Shown here: positions 7,360 through 48,722 of the stretch, piece by piece | Position numbering within the stretch: the stretch's first letter is position 1 | Layout: every line of letters starts with the position of its first letter | Assembly: GCF_014764445.1 (NCBI RefSeq) | Contig: NZ_CP061721.1 | Location: 2,170,001 to 2,234,000, forward strand | From: Pseudarthrobacter sp. BIM B-2242 | Lineage (GTDB): Bacteria; Actinomycetota; Actinomycetes; Actinomycetales; Micrococcaceae | Reading direction: 5' to 3' | Length of the DNA: 64,000 bases | Translations under genes and position numbers: made by a program | The notes under the pieces: generated by a model | Database searches by the model: none | What the model was told of the DNA's origin: nothing | What the model saw: the letters and a program-made list of their open reading frames with translations, nothing else

Positions 7360-8447
7360 AGATTGTCATCGATGCACGGTTCACCAGGCTTGACCACCAC
7401 GACGGCATCAGCCGCTACGGGGCCAGCCTGATTGCCGCGGCGGCCAAGCTTGCCGACGTCTCCATGCTGATCAGCGATACGCGGCAGCTGCCCCTGCTCC
7501 CCGACGTTCCGTACACGCTGATCAACAGCCCGCTGTCTCCGCTGGAGCTGTTTGTGGCACGCAAAATCAATCCCCTCGGCGCGGATGTGGTGGTCTGCCC
7601 CATGCAGACCATGGGCAGCTGGGGACGCCGGTACGGCCTGGTGCTGACCCTGCACGACCTCATCTACTATGAGCACCCCGCTCCCCCGGGCTTCCTTCCG
7701 GCACCGGTGCGGGTGCTGTGGCGGCTGTACCACAAGGCCTTCTGGCCCCAGCGCCTCCTGCTTAACCGCGCAGACACCGTGGCCACCATCAGCCGCACCA
7801 CTGAAGCGCTGATGACCAAATACCGGCTGACGAAGCGGCCCGTGCGGATCATCAGCAATGCTCCCCAGCCAGCGCAGGACCCTCGTGATCCTGCGGCCGG
7901 GGCGGACCATTCGCTCGTGTACATGGGTTCGTTTATGCCCTACAAAAACGTGGAGACCATGGTGGCCGGCATGGCCGGACTGCCCGACTTCACCCTGCAC
8001 CTGCTGAGCAGGATCACGCCTGAACGGCGGGCCCAGCTGGAAATCATGGTTCCCGCCGGCGCCAAGGTGGTCTTCCACAACGGTGTTACTGACGACGAAT
8101 ACGCTGTCCTGCTCAAGCGCGCCACCGCCTTGGTGAGCCTCTCCCGCGCCGAAGGGTACGGGCTGCCCCTGGTGGAGGCCATGTCCTTGGGCACACCCGT
8201 GATCGCCAGCGATATCCCGATTTTTCGGGAAGTCGGCGGCGACGCGGCCTCCTACGTTGAGCCCGGCTCCGCCACGGACTTCGCAGCCGCCGTCAAGACC
8301 CTGCGGGATGAAGAGCACTGGCAGGACGTGTCACGCCGTTCCGTGGCCCGCGCGGCGGAGTTCAGCTGGGACGAGTCGGCCCGTCAGCTCGTTGACGTGG
8401 CCCACGACATTGTGGCCACCCGTTCACCCCGCAAGCTTCCGCGCTAA
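7356..8447 (+). CDS. Glycosyltransferase family 4
   Basis: 363-residue GT-B-fold glycosyltransferase. The N-terminal acceptor domain starts MKIVIDARFT; the C-terminal donor domain carries the EX7E motif of family 4 (EGYGLPLVE, about residues 266-274) and a typical VYMGSFMPYKN linker near 187. It starts at GTG 7356, overlapping the hydrolase stop by four bases. It converges on priA, and the two stop codons overlap within CTAA (8444-8447). Donor and acceptor sugars are unknown. It is a lone transferase without visible polysaccharide-cluster partners. Confidence 0.9.
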   Translation: MKIVIDARFTRLDHHDGISRYGASLIAAAAKLADVSMLISDTRQLPLLPDVPYTLINSPLSPLELFVARKINPLGADVVVCPMQTMGSWGRRYGLVLTLHDLIYYEHPAPPGFLPAPVRVLWRLYHKAFWPQRLLLNRADTVATISRTTEALMTKYRLTKRPVRIISNAPQPAQDPRDPAAGADHSLVYMGSFMPYKNVETMVAGMAGLPDFTLHLLSRITPERRAQLEIMVPAGAKVVFHNGVTDDEYAVLLKRATALVSLSRAEGYGLPLVEAMSLGTPVIASDIPIFREVGGDAASYVEPGSATDFAAAVKTLRDEEHWQDVSRRSVARAAEFSWDESARQLVDVAHDIVATRSPRKLPR

Positions 8448-37118: not shown

Positions 37119-38534
37119 TCAGGTGCCGCGGATGATCTTCCGCAGCCGGTCCAGGCGGACTGCGATGTCCCGCTCCGCGCCGTTGGCGGTGGGCTCATAG
37201 TAATCACGGCCCACGAGGTCGTCCGGCGGGTACTGCTGGCTTGCCACTGAGTGCGGCGCATCGTGGGCGTACTTGTAGCCCTTGCCGTGGCCGAGCTGTT
37301 TCGAGCCCGGGTAATGCGCATCGCGCAGGTGCGCCGGAATTCCGTTGCCCAGGCCCGCGCGGACGTCCGCGATGGCCTTGTTTATCCCCATGTACGCAGC
37401 GTTCGATTTCGGTGCCGTGGCGAGATGCACCACGGCTTCGGCCAGGACGATCCGGCCTTCAGGCATGCCGATCAGCTGCACGGCGGTGGCCGCGGCCACG
37501 GCCGTCTGCAAGGCAGTGGGGTCGGCCATGCCCACGTCCTCTGCGGCGGAAATCACAATGCGCCGGGCAATAAAGCGGGGGTCCTCCCCCGCCTCAAGCA
37601 TTCTGGCCAGGTAGTGCAGGGCGGCGTCCACGTCGGAGCCGCGGACTGATTTGATGAAGGCGCTTGCCACGTCGTAATGCTGGTCGCCGGCCCGGTCGTA
37701 CCGCACGGCCGCCACATCCAGGGCGCGTTCGGTGTGCTTGAGCTCAACGGTGACCGGCGAGTCCGCGTCGGCGTCATCGGCGTCACCGAATGCGACTCCG
37801 GCGGCTGCCTCCAGGGCGGTCAGCGCCCGCCGGGCGTCGCCGCCGGACAGCCTGACGAGGTGGCCCAGCGCCTCCGGGCTGAGCTCCACCTTCCCGTTCA
37901 GGCCCCGCCCGTCCGCGACGGCGCGCTGCAAAAGCCCCTCGATGTCCGCGTCCGTCAGTGGTTTCAGCGTGAGCAGGAGCGACCTGGACAGCAGCGGCGA
38001 GACGACTGAGAAGGACGGGTTCTCCGTCGTTGCCGCCACGAGGACAACCCAGCGGTTTTCCACGCCGGGCAGGAGCGCATCCTGCTGTGCTTTGTTGAAC
38101 CGGTGGATCTCATCCAGGAACAGCACGGTGGTGGTCTTGTAGAGGTCACGCGCCGTGAGGGCTTCGTCCATCACACGCCGGACATCCTTGACGCCGGCGG
38201 TGATCGCGGAGAGTTCCACGAATTTCCGGCCCTTGCCCTTGGCAATGACATGCGCCAGCGTGGTCTTTCCGGTTCCCGGGGGTCCCCAGAGGATCAGCGA
38301 GCTCGGTCCCGCCGGCCCTACGGCGTCGGTCCCGGCCGCAAGCTGACGAAGTGGCGAGCCCTGGCCGAGGAGGTGCTGCTGTCCCACAACGTCGTCAAGG
38401 GTGCGCGGCCGCATCCTGACGGCCAGGGGGCTCCGCTGCGCCGCGCTGCGGCTTGCCGCCGCGCGGTCGGCCGGCGACGGTTCGTCACTGCCGTCGTCGT
38501 CATTGCCGGGCACTTGGCCGAAGAGATCATCCAC
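37119..38534 (-). CDS. rarA: Replication-associated recombination protein RarA (MgsA)
   Basis: 471-residue AAA+ ATPase acting at stalled forks. Walker [10 protein letters not shown] is near residue 85, Walker [16 protein letters not shown] near 138, the sensor ATTENPSF near 168, and the C-terminal tetramerisation domain ends ...[16 protein letters not shown]. The N-terminal 30 residues are acidic and include a FGQVPGN segment that could bind a partner. It starts at GTG 38534 with no SD; TAGCCT ends six bases upstream, consistent with a leaderless mRNA. Divergent from the acVLRF1 gene. Confidence 0.95.
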
Positions 38535-38540
38535 ATAGAT

Positions 38541-38546
38541 AGGCTA
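38541..38546 (-). promoter_or_regulatory. Candidate -10 for leaderless rarA mRNA
   Basis: TAGCCT (TANNNT) ends six bases before the rarA GTG, and no SD is present. No convincing -35 box is visible. Confidence 0.35.
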
Positions 38547-38590
38547 CTCATAGTTCACCACTACGATTTCGCACCGCTCAAAGGACCGCC

Positions 38591-39289
38591 ATGACCGCTC
38601 GCAGCACCGACAGTCCGCGCCGTGCGGGATCCGGTGGCGCGGGCTCCGGCCGCGCGGGGTCGGTCAGGACGGCTTTTGTGCCGGCCGCGCGCCTCGCCGG
38701 GTGGACCGGGCGCTTCAGCGCCGCGCACGGCGGCTTTCGGCTCAGCGATGACGACGACGGCGTGCGGCTTCTGGCGGCCGACGGCACCGTCGCGCTGCTC
38801 CAGGCACCGTGGCCGGCAGACGGGCGGCCGGGTCGCGGCGCCGATCCGCTGGAGCGCCTGGCGTCCGTGGCCGGCCAGCCCCGGACTGTGGGCCTGGTGC
38901 TGGTGCGGCGCGGCGGCTATGCAGCGGCCGTGGTGCAGGAAGGCGCCGTGCTGGCGTCAAAGACCGGGTCCGGCTATGTGCAGTCACGGTCCGCGGCCGG
39001 CGGCCAGTCCCAGCAGCGGTTCGCCCGCCGCCGGGCCAATCAGGCCGACGGGCTGGTGGAGAAGGTGGCAGTCCACGCGGCAGCAGTCTTTGGCGACCAC
39101 GTCATCGAGTACCTGGCCCCCGGCGGTGACCGGACCCTGGCGGGTCTGGTCATGGACGAACCTGTCATGAGGCCCTGCGCCTCACTCTCCCGGCTGGCGT
39201 TCCTGGATGTGGCCGACCCCAACGGCTCAGTCCTGAAGAAGGCCGCATCGGATGTCTGCGCCGTGCGGATCCAGGTTACGGACCCGTGA
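38591..39289 (+). CDS. acVLRF1-family peptidyl-tRNA hydrolase (Vms1-like release factor)
   Basis: 232-residue protein with a Ser/Gly/Arg-rich N-terminus (1-25) and an eRF1-like VLRF1 domain. The diagnostic loop AAGGQSQQRFARRRANQ lies at about residues 135-151, containing a Gly-Gly-Gln and the adjacent basic helix typical of Vms1/ANKZF1-type release factors. Relatives cleave peptidyl-tRNA on stalled large ribosomal subunits; the actinobacterial branch is known mainly from genome analysis. AAAGGA precedes the ATG. Divergent from rarA, and it ends three bases before the convergent ligB-like gene. Activity here is inferred. Confidence 0.85.
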   Translation: MTARSTDSPRRAGSGGAGSGRAGSVRTAFVPAARLAGWTGRFSAAHGGFRLSDDDDGVRLLAADGTVALLQAPWPADGRPGRGADPLERLASVAGQPRTVGLVLVRRGGYAAAVVQEGAVLASKTGSGYVQSRSAAGGQSQQRFARRRANQADGLVEKVAVHAAAVFGDHVIEYLAPGGDRTLAGLVMDEPVMRPCASLSRLAFLDVADPNGSVLKKAASDVCAVRIQVTDP

Positions 39290-39292
39290 CTC

Positions 39293-40090
39293 CTACGTCA
39301 GGGTCCAGGAGCGCTTCGACAAGCCGTACCAGAAGCCGTCGATGGCAGTTTTAGCATTCAGGTCACCGGAGCCGTAGGCTGCGCCGAGCGCCACGTACAG
39401 CGGAGCCCAGTGCTCACTGCGCGGGTGCGCCTGACGGGCGGCCGGGGCTTTGTTCAGGAAGTCGAGGATTGCATCAACGTCGCCCCGCGCCATGGCTTCT
39501 TCAGCCCAGTGGTCAAACTCGCTGGAGGCCGCCGGCGGAGCACTGTCCGGGCCGCCGGCAGGGTTGAACCAGCGCAGGTTGTGCGTCGTGAACCCTGAAC
39601 CGACAATCAGGGTGCCGCGCTCGCGCAGCGGTGCCAGCGTCATGCCGAGGTTGAACAGGCCCTGCGGATCCAGTGTGGGCATGGACATCTGGACGACCGG
39701 CACATCGGCGTCCGGGAACATCTCCTTGAGCGGCACGTAGGCGCCGTGGTCGAGCCCGCGGCTCTCATCGCGCTCGACGTGGTGGCCATGGACGGCAACA
39801 AGCCGCTCCACCTCCGCAGCGAGCTCCGGAGCCTGCGGCGCGTCGTATTGAACCTCGTAGTACTTCTGGGCGAAACCGCCAAAGTCATACACAAGGCCGG
39901 GATCCCGCTGCGTTGCACTCAGGGTTACCGGGGCATTCTCCCAGTGTGCCGAGACCATCAGGATGTCCTTGGGCTTCGTGAAGGTGCCGGACCAGTCGTG
40001 CAGCTGGCGGGTCCAGGTGGCGTCGTCGGCAAGCGGCGGCGCACCGTGGCTGAGGAAGAGAACCGGGGGCTGGCCAAGTGTCTGTGTCAT
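39293..40090 (-). CDS. LigB-type dioxygenase (4,5-DOPA extradiol dioxygenase-like)
   Basis: 265-residue class-III extradiol ring-cleaving dioxygenase. Candidate iron ligands are in LFLSHGAPP (about 12-20), VSAHWENAPV (about 46-55), and the DHGAYVPL (about 115-122) and GSGFTTHNLRWF (about 160-171) segments. The fold matches the YgiD/DODA group, whose bacterial substrate is uncertain (catecholic compounds). Its promoter has a perfect palindrome over the -35 box, so it is probably controlled by a MarR- or TetR-type repressor. No SD; the transcript is predicted leaderless. Convergent with acVLRF1. Confidence 0.9.
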   Translation of the reverse strand: MTQTLGQPPVLFLSHGAPPLADDATWTRQLHDWSGTFTKPKDILMVSAHWENAPVTLSATQRDPGLVYDFGGFAQKYYEVQYDAPQAPELAAEVERLVAVHGHHVERDESRGLDHGAYVPLKEMFPDADVPVVQMSMPTLDPQGLFNLGMTLAPLRERGTLIVGSGFTTHNLRWFNPAGGPDSAPPAASSEFDHWAEEAMARGDVDAILDFLNKAPAARQAHPRSEHWAPLYVALGAAYGSGDLNAKTAIDGFWYGLSKRSWTLT

Positions 40091-40096
40091 GGATTC

Positions 40097-40125
40097 ATAC
40101 TAACCGGTTTTCATTGAAGCTTCAA
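40097..40125 (-). promoter_or_regulatory. Promoter with operator for the ligB-like gene
   Basis: On the minus strand TTGAAG (40120-40125), a 17-bp spacer and TAGTAT (40097-40102) form a good promoter. The -10 ends six bases before the ATG, placing the transcript start at or next to the start codon. The -35 lies inside the 12-bp perfect palindrome TTGAAGCTTCAA (40114-40125), a candidate repressor site. Confidence 0.6.
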
Positions 40126-40236
40126 GTATAAGAAGATCCCCTCATCCAATGCGGAGTCATTTGTCGCCGGATAGGCGGTGCTTAGGGGGCGGAAAGTGAC
40201 CCCGGGTTGCATCCGACAGCGGGCGCCGGCCCGGTT

Positions 40237-41283
40237 TCAGCAGCCGGTCAGGTGCCGCTTCAGCCGGTCCTGGCGGTAGAGATAGCGCCCGGCTTCGCTG
40301 AATCCCGCGCCGGCATAGAGCTGCTGCGCTCCCTGGTTCGCGGCAGTGACCAGCAGCCAGTACCCGGCCAGCCGGCGTGCAGTGCCTTCGTTCAGGAGTG
40401 CCTGCATGATCTGACGGGCGTAGCCGCGGCGCCGGGCATCGGGGCGGGTGGCCATGCCATACAGCCCGCCCCAACGAGCTGCTTCGCCGCCAAGGACCTC
40501 TCCCCTGCCGCCGGGCCGGCCAGGCGGCAGGGCGAGCCGGCCGACGGCGGCGGCAACCCCGTCATCGGACCTCACCAGCGCGTATATCGAGGGGCAGCCC
40601 GTCAGAATCGTGCGCGCAGTGGCGAGCTCGGCGCCGCCACCGCGGCCGTCCACCTGCCACCACAGTTCCAGCCACTCGGGCGAGGGTTCTGCGGAGAGTT
40701 CGACGCCGGACACCGGCACCGCCGGTTGGGGCACGGCTGGTTGCGGCACGGCTGGTTGCGGCACGGCTGGTTGGGGCACGGCTGGTTGCGGCACGGCTGG
40801 TTGCGGCACGGCTGGTTGGGGCACGGCTGGTTGCGGCACGGCTGGTTGGGGCACGGCTGGTTGCGGCACGGCTGGTTGCGGCACGGCTGGTTGGGGCACG
40901 GCTGGTTGGGGCACGGCTGGTTGGGGCACGGCGCTGTCCGCGCTGGCGGGTGTTGTTCCCGCGTCCCGCCACATCACCAGGGTTTCGGATTGGCGGGTGA
41001 AGCCTTCCGCGTCCAGGAAAGCATGCAGCCCGGCGGAGCGGGGATCATCAAACAGCTGGAAGATCAGCGGCAGCCGGCGGTCGCGGTACCAAAGCCGGGC
41101 CGCCCGCAGTGCCGCATGGCGACCAGGGGAATCGCTGCCCGGCTCGCGCGGCCAGACCGAGTTGGCCCGCTGCGTCACTCCCGATGCCGCCCGCAACACC
41201 CAGCCGTTGGCTTCAGCACGGTCCGGAGCAGGCCAGGCAGCGTCCATCAGCGCTTCAAGGTCCCGCAGAGATGGCGCTGTCAT
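40237..41283 (-). CDS. GNAT acetyltransferase with 14-copy AVPQP linker
   Basis: 348 residues. The C-terminal GNAT domain (about 205-345) has the acetyl-CoA motif MATRPDARRRGYARQIM near 280-296 and a QLYAGAGF tail motif. The N-terminal region (1-110) looks like a degenerate second GNAT lobe (LIFQLFDD, LDAEGFTRQS). Between them lie 14 exact AVPQP pentapeptides (118-187) encoded by a 15-bp tandem repeat. Pro-rich repeats of this kind make rigid extended linkers; copy number is probably variable between strains. It lies downstream of the aspS terminator, on the same strand. Substrate unknown. Confidence 0.85.
   Translation of the reverse strand: MTAPSLRDLEALMDAAWPAPDRAEANGWVLRAASGVTQRANSVWPREPGSDSPGRHAALRAARLWYRDRRLPLIFQLFDDPRSAGLHAFLDAEGFTRQSETLVMWRDAGTTPASADSAVPQPAVPQPAVPQPAVPQPAVPQPAVPQPAVPQPAVPQPAVPQPAVPQPAVPQPAVPQPAVPQPAVPQPAVPVSGVELSAEPSPEWLELWWQVDGRGGGAELATARTILTGCPSIYALVRSDDGVAAAVGRLALPPGRPGGRGEVLGGEAARWGGLYGMATRPDARRRGYARQIMQALLNEGTARRLAGYWLLVTAANQGAQQLYAGAGFSEAGRYLYRQDRLKRHLTGC
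40723..40933. repeat. 15-bp tandem repeat (14 copies)
   Basis: Unit GGTTgGGGCACGGCT / GGTTgCGGCACGGCT on the plus strand, repeated 14 times without interruption. Units differ only at the sixth base; the last also differs at its final base. In plus-strand order the sixth base is G C C G C C G C G C C G G G. On the coding strand this is CCC versus CCG, both Pro, so every copy encodes AVPQP. Confidence 0.97.
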
Positions 41284-41302
41284 GTGATCCTTCCGCGACG
41301 AA

Positions 41303-41345
41303 AAGCCCCCGGGTGTGAACTGGTCCAGTTCACACCCGGGGGCTT
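41303..41345 (-). terminator. Terminator of aspS
   Basis: A 21-bp perfect inverted repeat (41303-41323 and 41325-41345; AAGCCCCCGGGTGTG with its complement) around a minimal loop, 20 bases past the aspS stop. TTTT follows on the minus strand. It separates aspS from the acetyltransferase gene. Confidence 0.9.
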
Positions 41346-41364
41346 GGTCATTACCGTGCCTGAA

Positions 41365-43152
41365 TTACTCGGCCTTTTTGGGCTCGTCCGGTTTCGTCTG
41401 TGGCTTGAAGTCCACGCCGGCTTCCTTGCGCTGCTGCGCCGTGATGGGCGCCGGAGCCTGGGTCAGCGGGTCATAGCCGTTGCCGGTCTTCGGGAACGCG
41501 ATGACGTCGCGGATCGACTCGACGCCGGCCAGCAGTGCCACAACGCGGTCCCAGCCGAAAGCGATCCCACCGTGCGGAGGTGCGCCGAACTTGAAGCCTT
41601 CGAGCAGGAATCCGAACTTCGTCTGTGCGTCTGCCCGGTCCAGTCCCATAAGTTCGAACACGCGTTCCTGGACGTCGCGCTCGTGGATACGGATGGAGCC
41701 GCCGCCGATTTCGTTGCCGTTGCAGACAATGTCGTAAGCGTAGGACAGCGCCGATTCCGGGTCCTTGTCGAACGTGTCCATGAACTCCGGCTTGGGCGAC
41801 GTGAAGGCATGGTGGACGGCAGTCCAGGAGCCGCCGCCAACGGCCACGTCGCCGGAGGCAACCGCAGCGGCAGCAGGCTCGAACATCGGCGCGTCGACCA
41901 CCCAGCAGAAGGCCCAGGCCTCGGGGTCGATCAGGCCGGTGCGGTGGCCGATCTCCACGCGCGCGGCGCCGAGAAGGCCGCGGGCGGCAGATTTCTCGCC
42001 CGCGGCGAAGAAGATGCAGTCGCCCGGCTTGGCGCCCACGGCGTCGGCCAGGCCGGCACGCTCAGTGTCTGTCAGGTTCTTGGCTACCGGACCGGCCAGT
42101 TCGCCGTCCTCCTTGAAGAGGACATATGCCAGGCCCTTGTGGCCGCGCTGCTTGGCAAATTCCTGCCAGCCATCCAGGGTGCGGCGGGGCTGGGAAGCAC
42201 CGCCGGGCATCACCACTGCACCGACATACGGGGCCTTGAAAACGCCGAAGTTGGTGTCCTTGAAGAAGTCCGTAAGCTCCGTCAGCTCCACGCCGAAGCG
42301 AAGGTCGGGCTTGTCCGAGCCGTACCGGGCCATCGCATCCGCGTAGGTGATGCGCTGGATAGGCGTGGGGATCTCGACGTCGATCAGCTTCCACAGTGCC
42401 TTGACGATGTTTTCGCCGAGGGCAATGATGTCGTCCTGGTCCACGAAGCTGGCTTCGATGTCCAGCTGGGTGAACTCCGGCTGGCGGTCGGCGCGGAAGT
42501 CCTCATCGCGGTAGCAGCGCGCGATCTGGTAGTACTTCTCGAAACCGCCCACCTGCAGCAGCTGCTTGAAAAGCTGCGGGGACTGCGGAAGTGCATACCA
42601 GGAACCCGGTGCCAGGCGTGCGGGGACCACGAAGTCGCGGGCGCCTTCCGGCGTCGAACGCGTCAGCGTGGGCGTCTCGATCTCGACGAAACCGTCCTGG
42701 TGCAGCAGTTCGCGGGCAACCCGGTTGGCTTCGGAGCGCAGCCGCAGGTTCCGGGCGGGGCCGGGGCGGCGAAGGTCCAGGTAGCGGTGCTTCAGGCGGG
42801 CTTCCTCGCCTACTTCGACGTGCTCGTCGATCTGGAACGGCAGCGGATCAGCGGTGTTCAGGATGACCACCTTATCCGCCATGACCTCGATGCTGCCGGT
42901 GGCCAGGGCGGGGTTCTCGTTGCCCTCGGGGCGCTGGGAAACGGTGCCCGTGACCTGCAGGACGTACTCGTTGCGCAGGCCGTGGAAGACCTCTTCTTCA
43001 CGGACCACAACCTGGGCCACGCCGGACGCATCGCGGAGATCCACGAATGCAACACCACCGTGATCGCGGCGGCGGCCTACCCAGCCGGCCAGGGTTACGG
43101 TTTGTCCAATGTGCTCGGAGCGAAGGGATCCGAGGTCATGTGTGCGCAGCAC
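41365..43152 (-). CDS. aspS: Aspartyl-tRNA synthetase
   Basis: 595-residue class-II synthetase, the usual bacterial length. It has an N-terminal OB-fold anticodon domain ([20 protein letters not shown] near 17-36), catalytic motif 2 ([20 protein letters not shown] near 220), a GAD insertion, and motif 3 ([15 protein letters not shown] near 533). The start is GTG 43152 (M-L-R-T-H-D-L), preceded by AAAGG; the open frame continues to 43599, but the extra 149 residues would read antisense to the divergent permease. It ends in a charged KPDEPKKAE tail. Whether it is discriminating or Asn-tolerant cannot be told here. Confidence 0.96.
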
Positions 43153-43263
43153 AGCACGCCTTTCTGAAGAGACAGCAGGGAAAACTAAAGACTTAAAGAT
43201 GCATAGGATCATTCCGGGAACAATCCCGTTCGAGTTTACCCGCTGGAAAGGCCCGCCTCCCCC

Positions 43264-44511
43264 ATGAACCAGCACCGCCAGCTTCAACGGAGGCTCGGCG
43301 TGTTTGACGCCACCTCCATCGGACTCGGCTCCATGCTCGGCGCCGGAGTTTTTGTTGTCTTCGCTCCGGCGGCCGGCCTGGCCGGAAATTTCCTTGTGCT
43401 GGCCGTACTCCTCGCGGGAGCCGTTGCGTACTGCAACGCTGTGGCGTCGGCTGAATTGGCTGCCCGTTATCCGGCCAGCGGCGGGACCTACGTGTACGGC
43501 CGGGAGCGGCTCGGCGACTGGCCCGGATTCGTGGCTGGCTGGGGATTTGTCAGCGGAAAGACGGCTTCCTGCGCTGCCATGGCCCTCACCTTCGGCCACT
43601 ACGTCGCCCCTGGCTACGCGGTTCCCGTTGCGGTGGCAGCAGTGGTTGTGCTGACGGCGGTCAATCTCTTCGGGATCACACGCACGGCATTGCTCACGCG
43701 GATCCTACTGTGCGTGGTGCTGGCAACCCTGGTGTTCGTGGCTGTCGCCGCCCTCGTGGGGCCGCATCCATCCGGGGCCCCCTCCGCCCCGGGCCGTTCC
43801 ACGGGCGGGCTCGGCGGCGTTCTGCCGGCGGCCGGCCTGATGTTCTTCGCTTTTGCCGGCTACGCCCGCATCGCGACGCTGGGCGAGGAAGTCAAGGATC
43901 CGGCCAAGACCATTCCACGCGCCATCCTTGCCGCGTTGGGCGGGGCGTTCGTCATTTATCTGGGACTTGCCGTCGTGCTTCAAACCCACTTGCCGGACGG
44001 CCGGCTGGCGGCAACCGCGGTTCCGCTTCTGGAGGCCGTGGTCAATTCACGGTTCGCGGCCGGTGCCCCGCTGGTCCAGGCCGGCGCCGCAGCGGCGTGC
44101 CTCGGAGCACTGCTGGCGCTCATCACAGGGGTGGGCAGAACTGCATTGGCGATGGCACGGGAGCGGGACCTGCCTTCGCCGCTGGCGCGGGTGGGCGGCA
44201 GGCACACGGTGCCGTTCGTCGCGGAACTCGCGGTAGCCGCCGTCGTCATCCTGCTGCTCCTGACCACGGACGTGATGACCGTGGTGGGCTTCTCCAGTTT
44301 CGGTGTACTGATCTATTACGCTGTCACCAACGCTGCGGCCTACACGCTGGATGAACACCCCTACCATGCGCCCAGATGGCTGAACGTTGTTGGCTTTGCC
44401 AGCTGCCTGCTGCTGGCGTTCACACTGCCGCCCGCTTCGGTGCTGGGGATGGCGGCAGTCCTTGCCTTGGGGGTGGCCGTGAGGTTCCTCGTGCTCAGGC
44501 TGCGCCGCTAG
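43264..44511 (+). CDS. APC-family amino acid permease
   Basis: 415-residue inner-membrane transporter with about 11-12 hydrophobic segments. The first helix has the APC substrate-binding signature [12 protein letters not shown] (about residues 22-33), and the helix-6 region has [20 protein letters not shown] near 194-213. Amino acids or polyamines are the likely substrate. Only a distant GGAAAGG lies upstream, about 13 bases from the ATG. It is divergent from aspS and convergent with hisS, between two aminoacyl-tRNA synthetase genes. Confidence 0.9.
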
Positions 44512-47024: not shown

Positions 47025-48722
47025 GTGACAGACAGTCAGAAATCCGACGAAACAGCAGCAGACCTGACCGACGCAACGGCCCCCGAGGCCGAGCAGTCAG
47101 TAGCTGACCAGGCAGTGGCCGATAACGCAACGGCCGATGACGCCGCCGCGGAGGCACCCGTGGCCCATGAGGCGGTGACTGAGGAAGCACCAGTTGAGGC
47201 GCCCGTCGCTGACAAGCCTGCGGCTGACGAGACAGCGGCTGACGAAGCGGTGGTCGAAGAGGCCGCCACTGACGCGTCCGTGGGTGGAGAGCCTGCGGCC
47301 GAAGAGGCCGCAGCTGACGCGTCCGTCGCGGAAGAGCCCGCGGCTGCGCAGCCCGCTGCACCCGCCCCCGCTCCCCGTCCGGCTCCATCACCTGCCGCCT
47401 TCGCCGCCAGGCCCAAGCCGGCCGCTGCCGCACCGGCTGCGGCCGCTGCGCCCGTCGCGTCTGCGACCTCGCTGGCCGAAGCTGCACGCTGGGGCCGCGT
47501 CGAAGGCGACGGCCACGTGTTCCTGACGATCGACGGCGAAGAGCACCCGGTGGGCCAGTACCCCGGCGTAAGCAATGACGAGGCGCTGGGGTACTTCGCG
47601 CGGAAATATGACGACATCGTGGCGCAGGTCCTGCTCCTCGAGCAGCGTGTCAGTTCCAAGGCGCCCAGCACCGACATGCAAAAGACTGTCACCCACCTGC
47701 GTGAGCAGCTGGCAGAGCGGAACATGGTGGGGGATCTCCGCTCGGCGGAAGCCCGCCTGGATGCCGTTTCCGCCCAGATCACCGAGCTGGAGAAGACAGA
47801 GAAGGCGGAGCATGATGCCGTTCGCACAGCCGAGCTGGCAGCCCGCGAAGCAATCGTTGCCGAAGCCGAAAGCATCTCCGGCCAGGATCCGGCGCAGATC
47901 CAGTGGAAAACCTCCAGCGCGCGCATGAATGAACTCTTCGAAAGCTGGAAGACGGCCCAGAAGAGCGGCGTCCGGCTTGGCCGCAGCAACGAGGACGCAC
48001 TGTGGAAGCGGTTCCGTGCTGCACGGACTGTTTTCGACCGCCACCGCCGCGCGTACTTCTCCCAGCTGGACAGCACCAACTCCGCGGCGAAGTCGGCCAA
48101 GGAAAAGCTCATCGCCGAGGCCGAGGCACTGTCCTCATCCACCGACTGGGGCTTCGCCGCCGGCGAGTACCGCAGGCTGATGGACGAGTGGAAGGCGTCG
48201 CCGCGCGCGAGCCGCAAGGACGATGACGCCCTGTGGGCACGGTTCCGGGCGGCCCAGGACGTGTTCTTCACGTCCCGGCAGGCGGCCAACGAGGAGATCG
48301 ACCAGGAATACGCGGCCAACCTGACTGTGAAGGAAGCCCTCCTGGTGGAGGCCGGCGCCATCCTGCCGGTCAAGGACCTGAACGCCGCCAAGAAGGCGCT
48401 CCAGTCCATCCGTGACCGCTGGGAAGAGGCCGGGAAGGTTCCCCGCGCCGACATGGGACGGATCGAAGCCGGCCTGCGCAAGGTGGAGGACGCTGTCCGT
48501 CACGCTGAAGAGGAAAACTGGCAGCGCTCCAACCCCGAAACCAAAGCGCGCACCAACAGCGCACTCTCGCAGTTGGAAGCAGCAATCTCCGGCCTCCAGG
48601 ACGATCTCGCCAAGGCAGAGAACGCCGGCGACCAGCGCAAGATCAAGGCAGCCCGCGAAGCCCTCGAGGCGAGGCAGGCCTGGCTTGACCAGATCCAGCG
48701 TTCCGCCAGCGAGCTCTCCTAA
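47025..48722 (+). CDS. DUF349 protein with low-complexity acidic N-terminus
   Basis: 565 residues. The first 150 are Ala/Glu/Asp/Pro-rich low complexity, including two near-identical 15-residue units; the rest is long helices with several DUF349 repeats of roughly 75 residues (for example SWKTAQKSGVRLGRSNEDALWKRF around 305 and EWKASPRASRKDDDALWARF around 385). GTG start. DUF349 proteins are cytoplasmic coiled-coil proteins of unknown function. It stands between the cyclophilin and relA genes and has its own strong terminator. Confidence 0.85.
   Translation: MTDSQKSDETAADLTDATAPEAEQSVADQAVADNATADDAAAEAPVAHEAVTEEAPVEAPVADKPAADETAADEAVVEEAATDASVGGEPAAEEAAADASVAEEPAAAQPAAPAPAPRPAPSPAAFAARPKPAAAAPAAAAAPVASATSLAEAARWGRVEGDGHVFLTIDGEEHPVGQYPGVSNDEALGYFARKYDDIVAQVLLLEQRVSSKAPSTDMQKTVTHLREQLAERNMVGDLRSAEARLDAVSAQITELEKTEKAEHDAVRTAELAAREAIVAEAESISGQDPAQIQWKTSSARMNELFESWKTAQKSGVRLGRSNEDALWKRFRAARTVFDRHRRAYFSQLDSTNSAAKSAKEKLIAEAEALSSSTDWGFAAGEYRRLMDEWKASPRASRKDDDALWARFRAAQDVFFTSRQAANEEIDQEYAANLTVKEALLVEAGAILPVKDLNAAKKALQSIRDRWEEAGKVPRADMGRIEAGLRKVEDAVRHAEEENWQRSNPETKARTNSALSQLEAAISGLQDDLAKAENAGDQRKIKAAREALEARQAWLDQIQRSASELS
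47256..47345. repeat. Two tandem 45-bp units
   Basis: Units at 47256-47300 and 47301-47345 both begin GAAGAGGCCGC and share GACGCGTCCGT; they differ at scattered positions. They encode EEAATDASVGGEPAA and EEAAADASVAEEPAA in the low-complexity N-terminus of the DUF349 protein, pointing to local duplication. Confidence 0.85.

Follow-up and report, generated by a model that had tools for sequence, protein, structure and literature searches.

A 14-unit in-frame minisatellite in the connector of a tandem GNAT acetyltransferase gene of Pseudarthrobacter sp. BIM B-2242: apparently a DNA copying slip, not a proven switch

Within a stretch of 64,000 nucleotides from Pseudarthrobacter sp. BIM B-2242 (contig NZ_CP061721.1, positions 2,170,001 to 2,234,000; the window), a gene for a GNAT-type acetyltransferase contains 14 consecutive in-frame copies of a 15-bp unit encoding AVPQP. 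The array is best explained as an in-frame coding minisatellite that has recently grown, and is tolerated, in the disordered segment (connector) between the lobes of a compact tandem GNAT acetyltransferase (probability about 0.8). The unit, already present in the clade, would have been repeatedly gained and lost via replication slippage or unequal recombination, and in the window strain may very recently have increased from about 2 to 14 copies. Because the lobes would pack against each other directly, leaving the connector to loop out, such a change would be tolerated; enzyme activity would probably be kept, with the number of units predicted to have little or no effect. Growth of the connector in this soil bacterium is thus apparently an ordinary DNA copying slip rather than a proven switch.

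Direct reading and Tandem Repeats Finder (TRF) confirmed the preliminary description of the DNA with respect to (AVPQP)14 in a minus-strand open reading frame (ORF) of a GNAT gene (Table 1), although the span given there (40723..40933) starts correctly and ends one base too far. The unit reads GCC GTG CC(C/G) CAA CCA, its length is a multiple of 3 bp, the array lies entirely inside the ORF, and a diverged partial fifteenth unit adjoins it. Codon 3 varies between CCC and CCG; along the array the order is CCCGGCGCGGCGGC, which is non-periodic as had been claimed (lags 1–7, smallest p 0.19). Variation is indeed exclusively synonymous, but at two sites rather than the one described, since the terminal unit closes with CCG and the other 13 with CCA. 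The array does not arise by chance: its TRF score of 375 was the top value among 59 rows in 464 kb of the strain's own genome, made up of the 64-kb window and 20 further stretches of 20 kb each. Spread of the unit through the genome was rejected, as the array, searched for at the DNA level, gave a single match in the own genome. Nucleic-acid structure was also rejected as cause of the array, which folds worse than shuffled sequences (z 4.94 for DNA, 2.46 for RNA); no RNA element was found near it (0 Rfam matches at gathering scores in window 38000-44000).

Copy number differs among near relatives. In a protein search with the N-terminal lobe (best 120 of 607 matches used), P0002 (288 aa) showed 100 % identity in the region covered by the query; on either side of the array it is the same as the window protein, with 2 units instead of 14. 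P0003, P0004 and P0005 likewise have 2 units each, the final AVP being replaced by PVP, and P0006 has 3; these five clusters (P0002 to P0006) comprise 1, 10, 4, 1 and 1 member sequences, respectively. Hence 2, 3 and 14 units occur at 97–100 % N-lobe identity on the protein level, i.e., the array represents a variable number of tandem repeats (VNTR), and both the recent expansion and the variable copy number that had been proposed are borne out by these near-identical relatives. The only orthologs among the 80 matches listed in a search with the array region (candidates capped at 7,992) were the protein itself, P0006 and P0002; the others listed were unrelated types of proline-rich protein, several of which contain 3–8 AVPQP words.

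The connector also varies across a wider set of relatives, with linker length taken as the number of residues between fixed motifs. In a protein set to which the window protein does not belong, linkers were readable in 112 of 121 members (9 had none by motif) and ranged from 23 to 49 residues (median 24). Among 146 loci, 26 gave no linker by motif (L063-L065 being other genes), and merging of duplicates left 87 distinct linkers, of which that of the window has 99 residues and the other 86 have 22-44; 44 of the 87, the window's being counted, measure 22-26 residues. Another 38 missed or additional long-candidate loci were read by eye, 36 of them yielding a linker (some sequences twice). The longest of these has 49 residues and is free of repeats (L173, G196 C11:293150-294200), so that long connectors arise by another route as well. 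Gene matches listed outside the own genome span at most 876 bp, as compared to 1,044 bp for the window gene.

A quick tree of 190 rows, built with the linker excluded and with 82 of 187 inner branches open, places the window (represented by P0002) in a clade of 23 rows with support 94. Linkers in this clade have 34 (9 rows), 39 (7), 44 (4), 49 (2) or 30 (1) residues, and 20 of 21 distinct ones equal 4 modulo 5. Parsimony for the clade together with the window demands at least 7 length changes, of which only that to 30 departs from five-residue steps; the probability of at least 6 of 7 changes being multiples of five is 3.7e-4, assuming that open forks are freely resolvable and that one change in five is a multiple of five by chance. 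Units of the form xxPxP recur in the clade, close relatives having LVPQP, LVPEP, LKPEP or none.

The codons of the array point to copying of DNA. In the same-genus genome G015, GCC GTG CCC CAA GCG stands at the array's place. CAA is used in 14 of 14 units and CCA in 13 of 14; in four neighbouring ORFs, CAA accounts for 6 of the 58 Gln codons and CCA for 7 of the 116 Pro codons, shares which are rough, as the listed aspS ORF extends about 149 codons beyond its profile match and overlaps another ORF. Retention of these codons fits DNA copying and not repeated choice of the peptide. Starting from a core of three units, five duplications of blocks can reproduce the order of C and G, but they also reproduce 40 % of 300 shuffled orders; the order therefore does not disclose the history of the array. 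Of the 87 distinct linkers, 10, including that of the window, are self-similar in tandem at 12 or 15 bp (p <= 0.01 versus codon shuffles). In L008, a 12-bp repeat is exact; the agreement is 13 of 15 bases in L034, L048 and L060 and 12 of 15 in L037, indicating that short in-frame duplications occur in the linker on several branches. At L060, it is the linker junction that is duplicated (GVEISGVEMS).

Among the alternatives, a contingency locus, in which selection tunes or switches the number of units and thereby sets lobe spacing or activity, is unlikely, although it fares best. Near-identical alleles do differ in copy number, and PMC12817950 describes phase-variable tandem repeats in the actinobacterium M. 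tuberculosis, in promoters and not in a coding linker. However, the predicted lobe packing is the same with 2 and with 14 units, and the previously suggested linker-length switch is unsupported. Moreover, half of the distinct linkers are as short as 22-26 residues, a repeat-free linker of 49 residues exists, and no ortholog with 4-13 units was detected among the 80 array-region matches listed or among the best 120 of 607 N-lobe matches.

Selection of the peptide itself, e.g., as a proline-rich binding segment or a rigid spacer, appears improbable. All 14 units encode AVPQP and xxPxP units are recurrent in the clade; yet the units of close relatives vary or are absent, and 13 of the 45 possible single-base changes in the unit are synonymous; two changes, the second of which we infer, suffice for a synonymous-only pattern. 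Selection to keep the peptide, as claimed in the preliminary description, does not follow. Just as improbable would be an evolved length dial, with the quantised linker being adjusted in 15-bp steps on a widely conserved acetyltransferase and the window strain standing at an extreme setting; if true, the number of units would let strains or subpopulations regulate stability, complex formation or the breathing of the lobes. An assembly artefact, the real array being shorter, is least probable of all: tandem repeats are a known source of assembly errors according to PMC6868369, and five near-identical clusters among the matches listed have just 2-3 units, but the genome was assembled into two contigs, the order of CCC and CCG inside the array is irregular, and both flanks are in frame.

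Several points weigh against a tolerated, recently grown minisatellite. We infer the rate and the direction of copy-number change from sequence comparison, P0002 to P0006 were compared as proteins, and frameshifted alleles would escape protein searches. The array of P0002 could have been collapsed in a short-read assembly. Since the models with 2 and 14 units were built on nearly the same alignment, their equal packing is a weak test. The window linker of 99 residues is about twice as long as the next longest (49 residues in P0019, P0021 and L173), so that tolerance at such a length is only presumed. Finally, the sister clade is less regular, with 20 of 33 rows equalling 3 modulo 5.

Table 1. 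Features of the acetyltransferase gene and its repeat array (window positions; pLDDT, predicted local distance difference test)
Feature	Position	Strand	Basis
Tandem GNAT acetyltransferase gene with repeat, 348 aa	40237..41283	-	ORF; PF24553; Acetyltransf_1; same-genus matches
N-terminal lobe and tail, residues 1-117	40933..41283	-	PF24553 at residues 6-121; block pLDDT 72-92 (residues 1-110)
14 x 15-bp array, (AVPQP)14, residues 118-187	40723..40932	-	Direct reading; TRF score 375; block pLDDT 41-46
Partial diverged unit 15, GCG GTG CCG (AVP)	40714..40722	-	Direct reading; TRF array extent 40714-40932
C-terminal GNAT lobe, residues 193-348	40240..40707	-	Acetyltransf_1 at residues 233-328; block pLDDT 86-95

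The C-terminal lobe matches Acetyltransf_1 with 43.2 bits (cut-off 20.7), and its high pLDDT has exceptions in a loop at about residues 251-270 and in the last residues. This second low-confidence loop (window 40480-40524, residues about 254-268; pLDDT below 50 at 256-268) varies in length and is the point at which the matches of many orthologs are split. The protein-database entry for the window gene (P0122) has 245 aa and all 14 units, starts at Met104 and lacks the N-lobe; this start was probably called wrongly, judging by P0002 and other orthologs, which start at Met1.

The gene was matched in 199 of 206 same-genus genomes (the own genome being counted), a few matches being fragments. Among loci of named genomes (80 of 99 kept), almost all belong to Arthrobacter, Pseudarthrobacter and Paenarthrobacter, with Pseudarthrobacter sulfonivorans ALL 3 as the nearest. 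Upstream of the gene lies aspS (826 bits, cut-off 443), which occupies this place on the same strand in 80 of these 80 loci at a distance of 48-239 bp from the GNAT match. Between both genes (window about 41304-41345), a strong inverted repeat and a run of T, read by eye, look like the aspS terminator. Of the downstream ORFs, one resembles a dioxygenase of the 4,5-DOPA type (149 bits, cut-off 233 not reached) and another a RarA-like AAA ATPase, with scores below the respective cut-offs. Derivation of the gene from a phage or mobile element was rejected, as an alignment-based scan of viral contigs gave 12 pattern matches, 0 of which were confirmed as relatives. Other repeats were noted in the same genome: a 39-bp unit with 4.9 copies at 92 % (L165, 13886-14077; several frames open across it), a 24-bp unit with 5.8 copies at 93 % (L155, 15977-16116; several frames open), and two 45-bp repeats (window 47255-47344) in a plus-strand ORF of 565 aa (47025-48722) with an Ala/Glu/Asp-rich N-terminal part.

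Nature provides here a clean record of a minisatellite in the coding sequence of a probably intracellular enzyme. Linker length in the clade shifts mostly by five residues, and the window strain stands about 12 steps past the nearest allele. Identical lobes joined by 2 versus 14 units make possible a direct test of the tolerance of a two-lobe enzyme towards an unstructured linker, and the synonymous-only variation of such a young array cautions against inferring selection.

With respect to known families, PF24553 (Rv0428c_C) matches both the window protein (61.8 bits) and its 2-unit relative P0002 (64.6 bits) above the curated cut-off of 27.2; in P0002, profile positions 4-223 of 224 are covered in one stretch, whereas the match in the window protein falls into two, of which the better extends up to residue 121, at the start of the array. 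The nearest NCBIfam model is that of the Cg3035-type N-acetylglutamate synthase (C-NAGS, NF049894), with which P0002 is colinear over profile positions 66-297. Since the scores (window protein 78.2, P0002 87.3 bits) are below the cut-off of 280 bits, the window protein was not filed as C-NAGS. Gene neighbourhoods also differ: according to PMC3827942, relatives of Cg3035 are neighboured by def2 and xthA or often by a ferredoxin gene, in contrast to the aspS gene found here. Both lobes align jointly with solved two-lobe GNATs, i.e., 4ius, 7q3a (MAB_4324) and MshD (2c27/1ozp), at 13-18 % identity, in agreement with a compact tandem GNAT fold. No title on an AVPQP array was present among the matches listed for literature on Cg3035/Rv0428c, Arthrobacter minisatellites, tandem repeats in interdomain linkers, coding tandem repeats with proline-rich linkers and tandem GNAT linkers; literature searches on phase-variable linker length in an acetyltransferase and on VNTR with slipped-strand terms gave no matches. 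The in-frame unit and its growth via duplication resemble bacterial coding VNTRs and simple-sequence proteins as described in PMC1524752, where the latter are preferentially linked to cell surface, membrane and transport and negatively to metabolism; the window protein, in contrast, is probably a cytosolic enzyme. In-frame minisatellites that encode part of a disordered linker are a known kind, and what sets the present one apart is the five-residue ladder of its clade together with the jump to 14 units.
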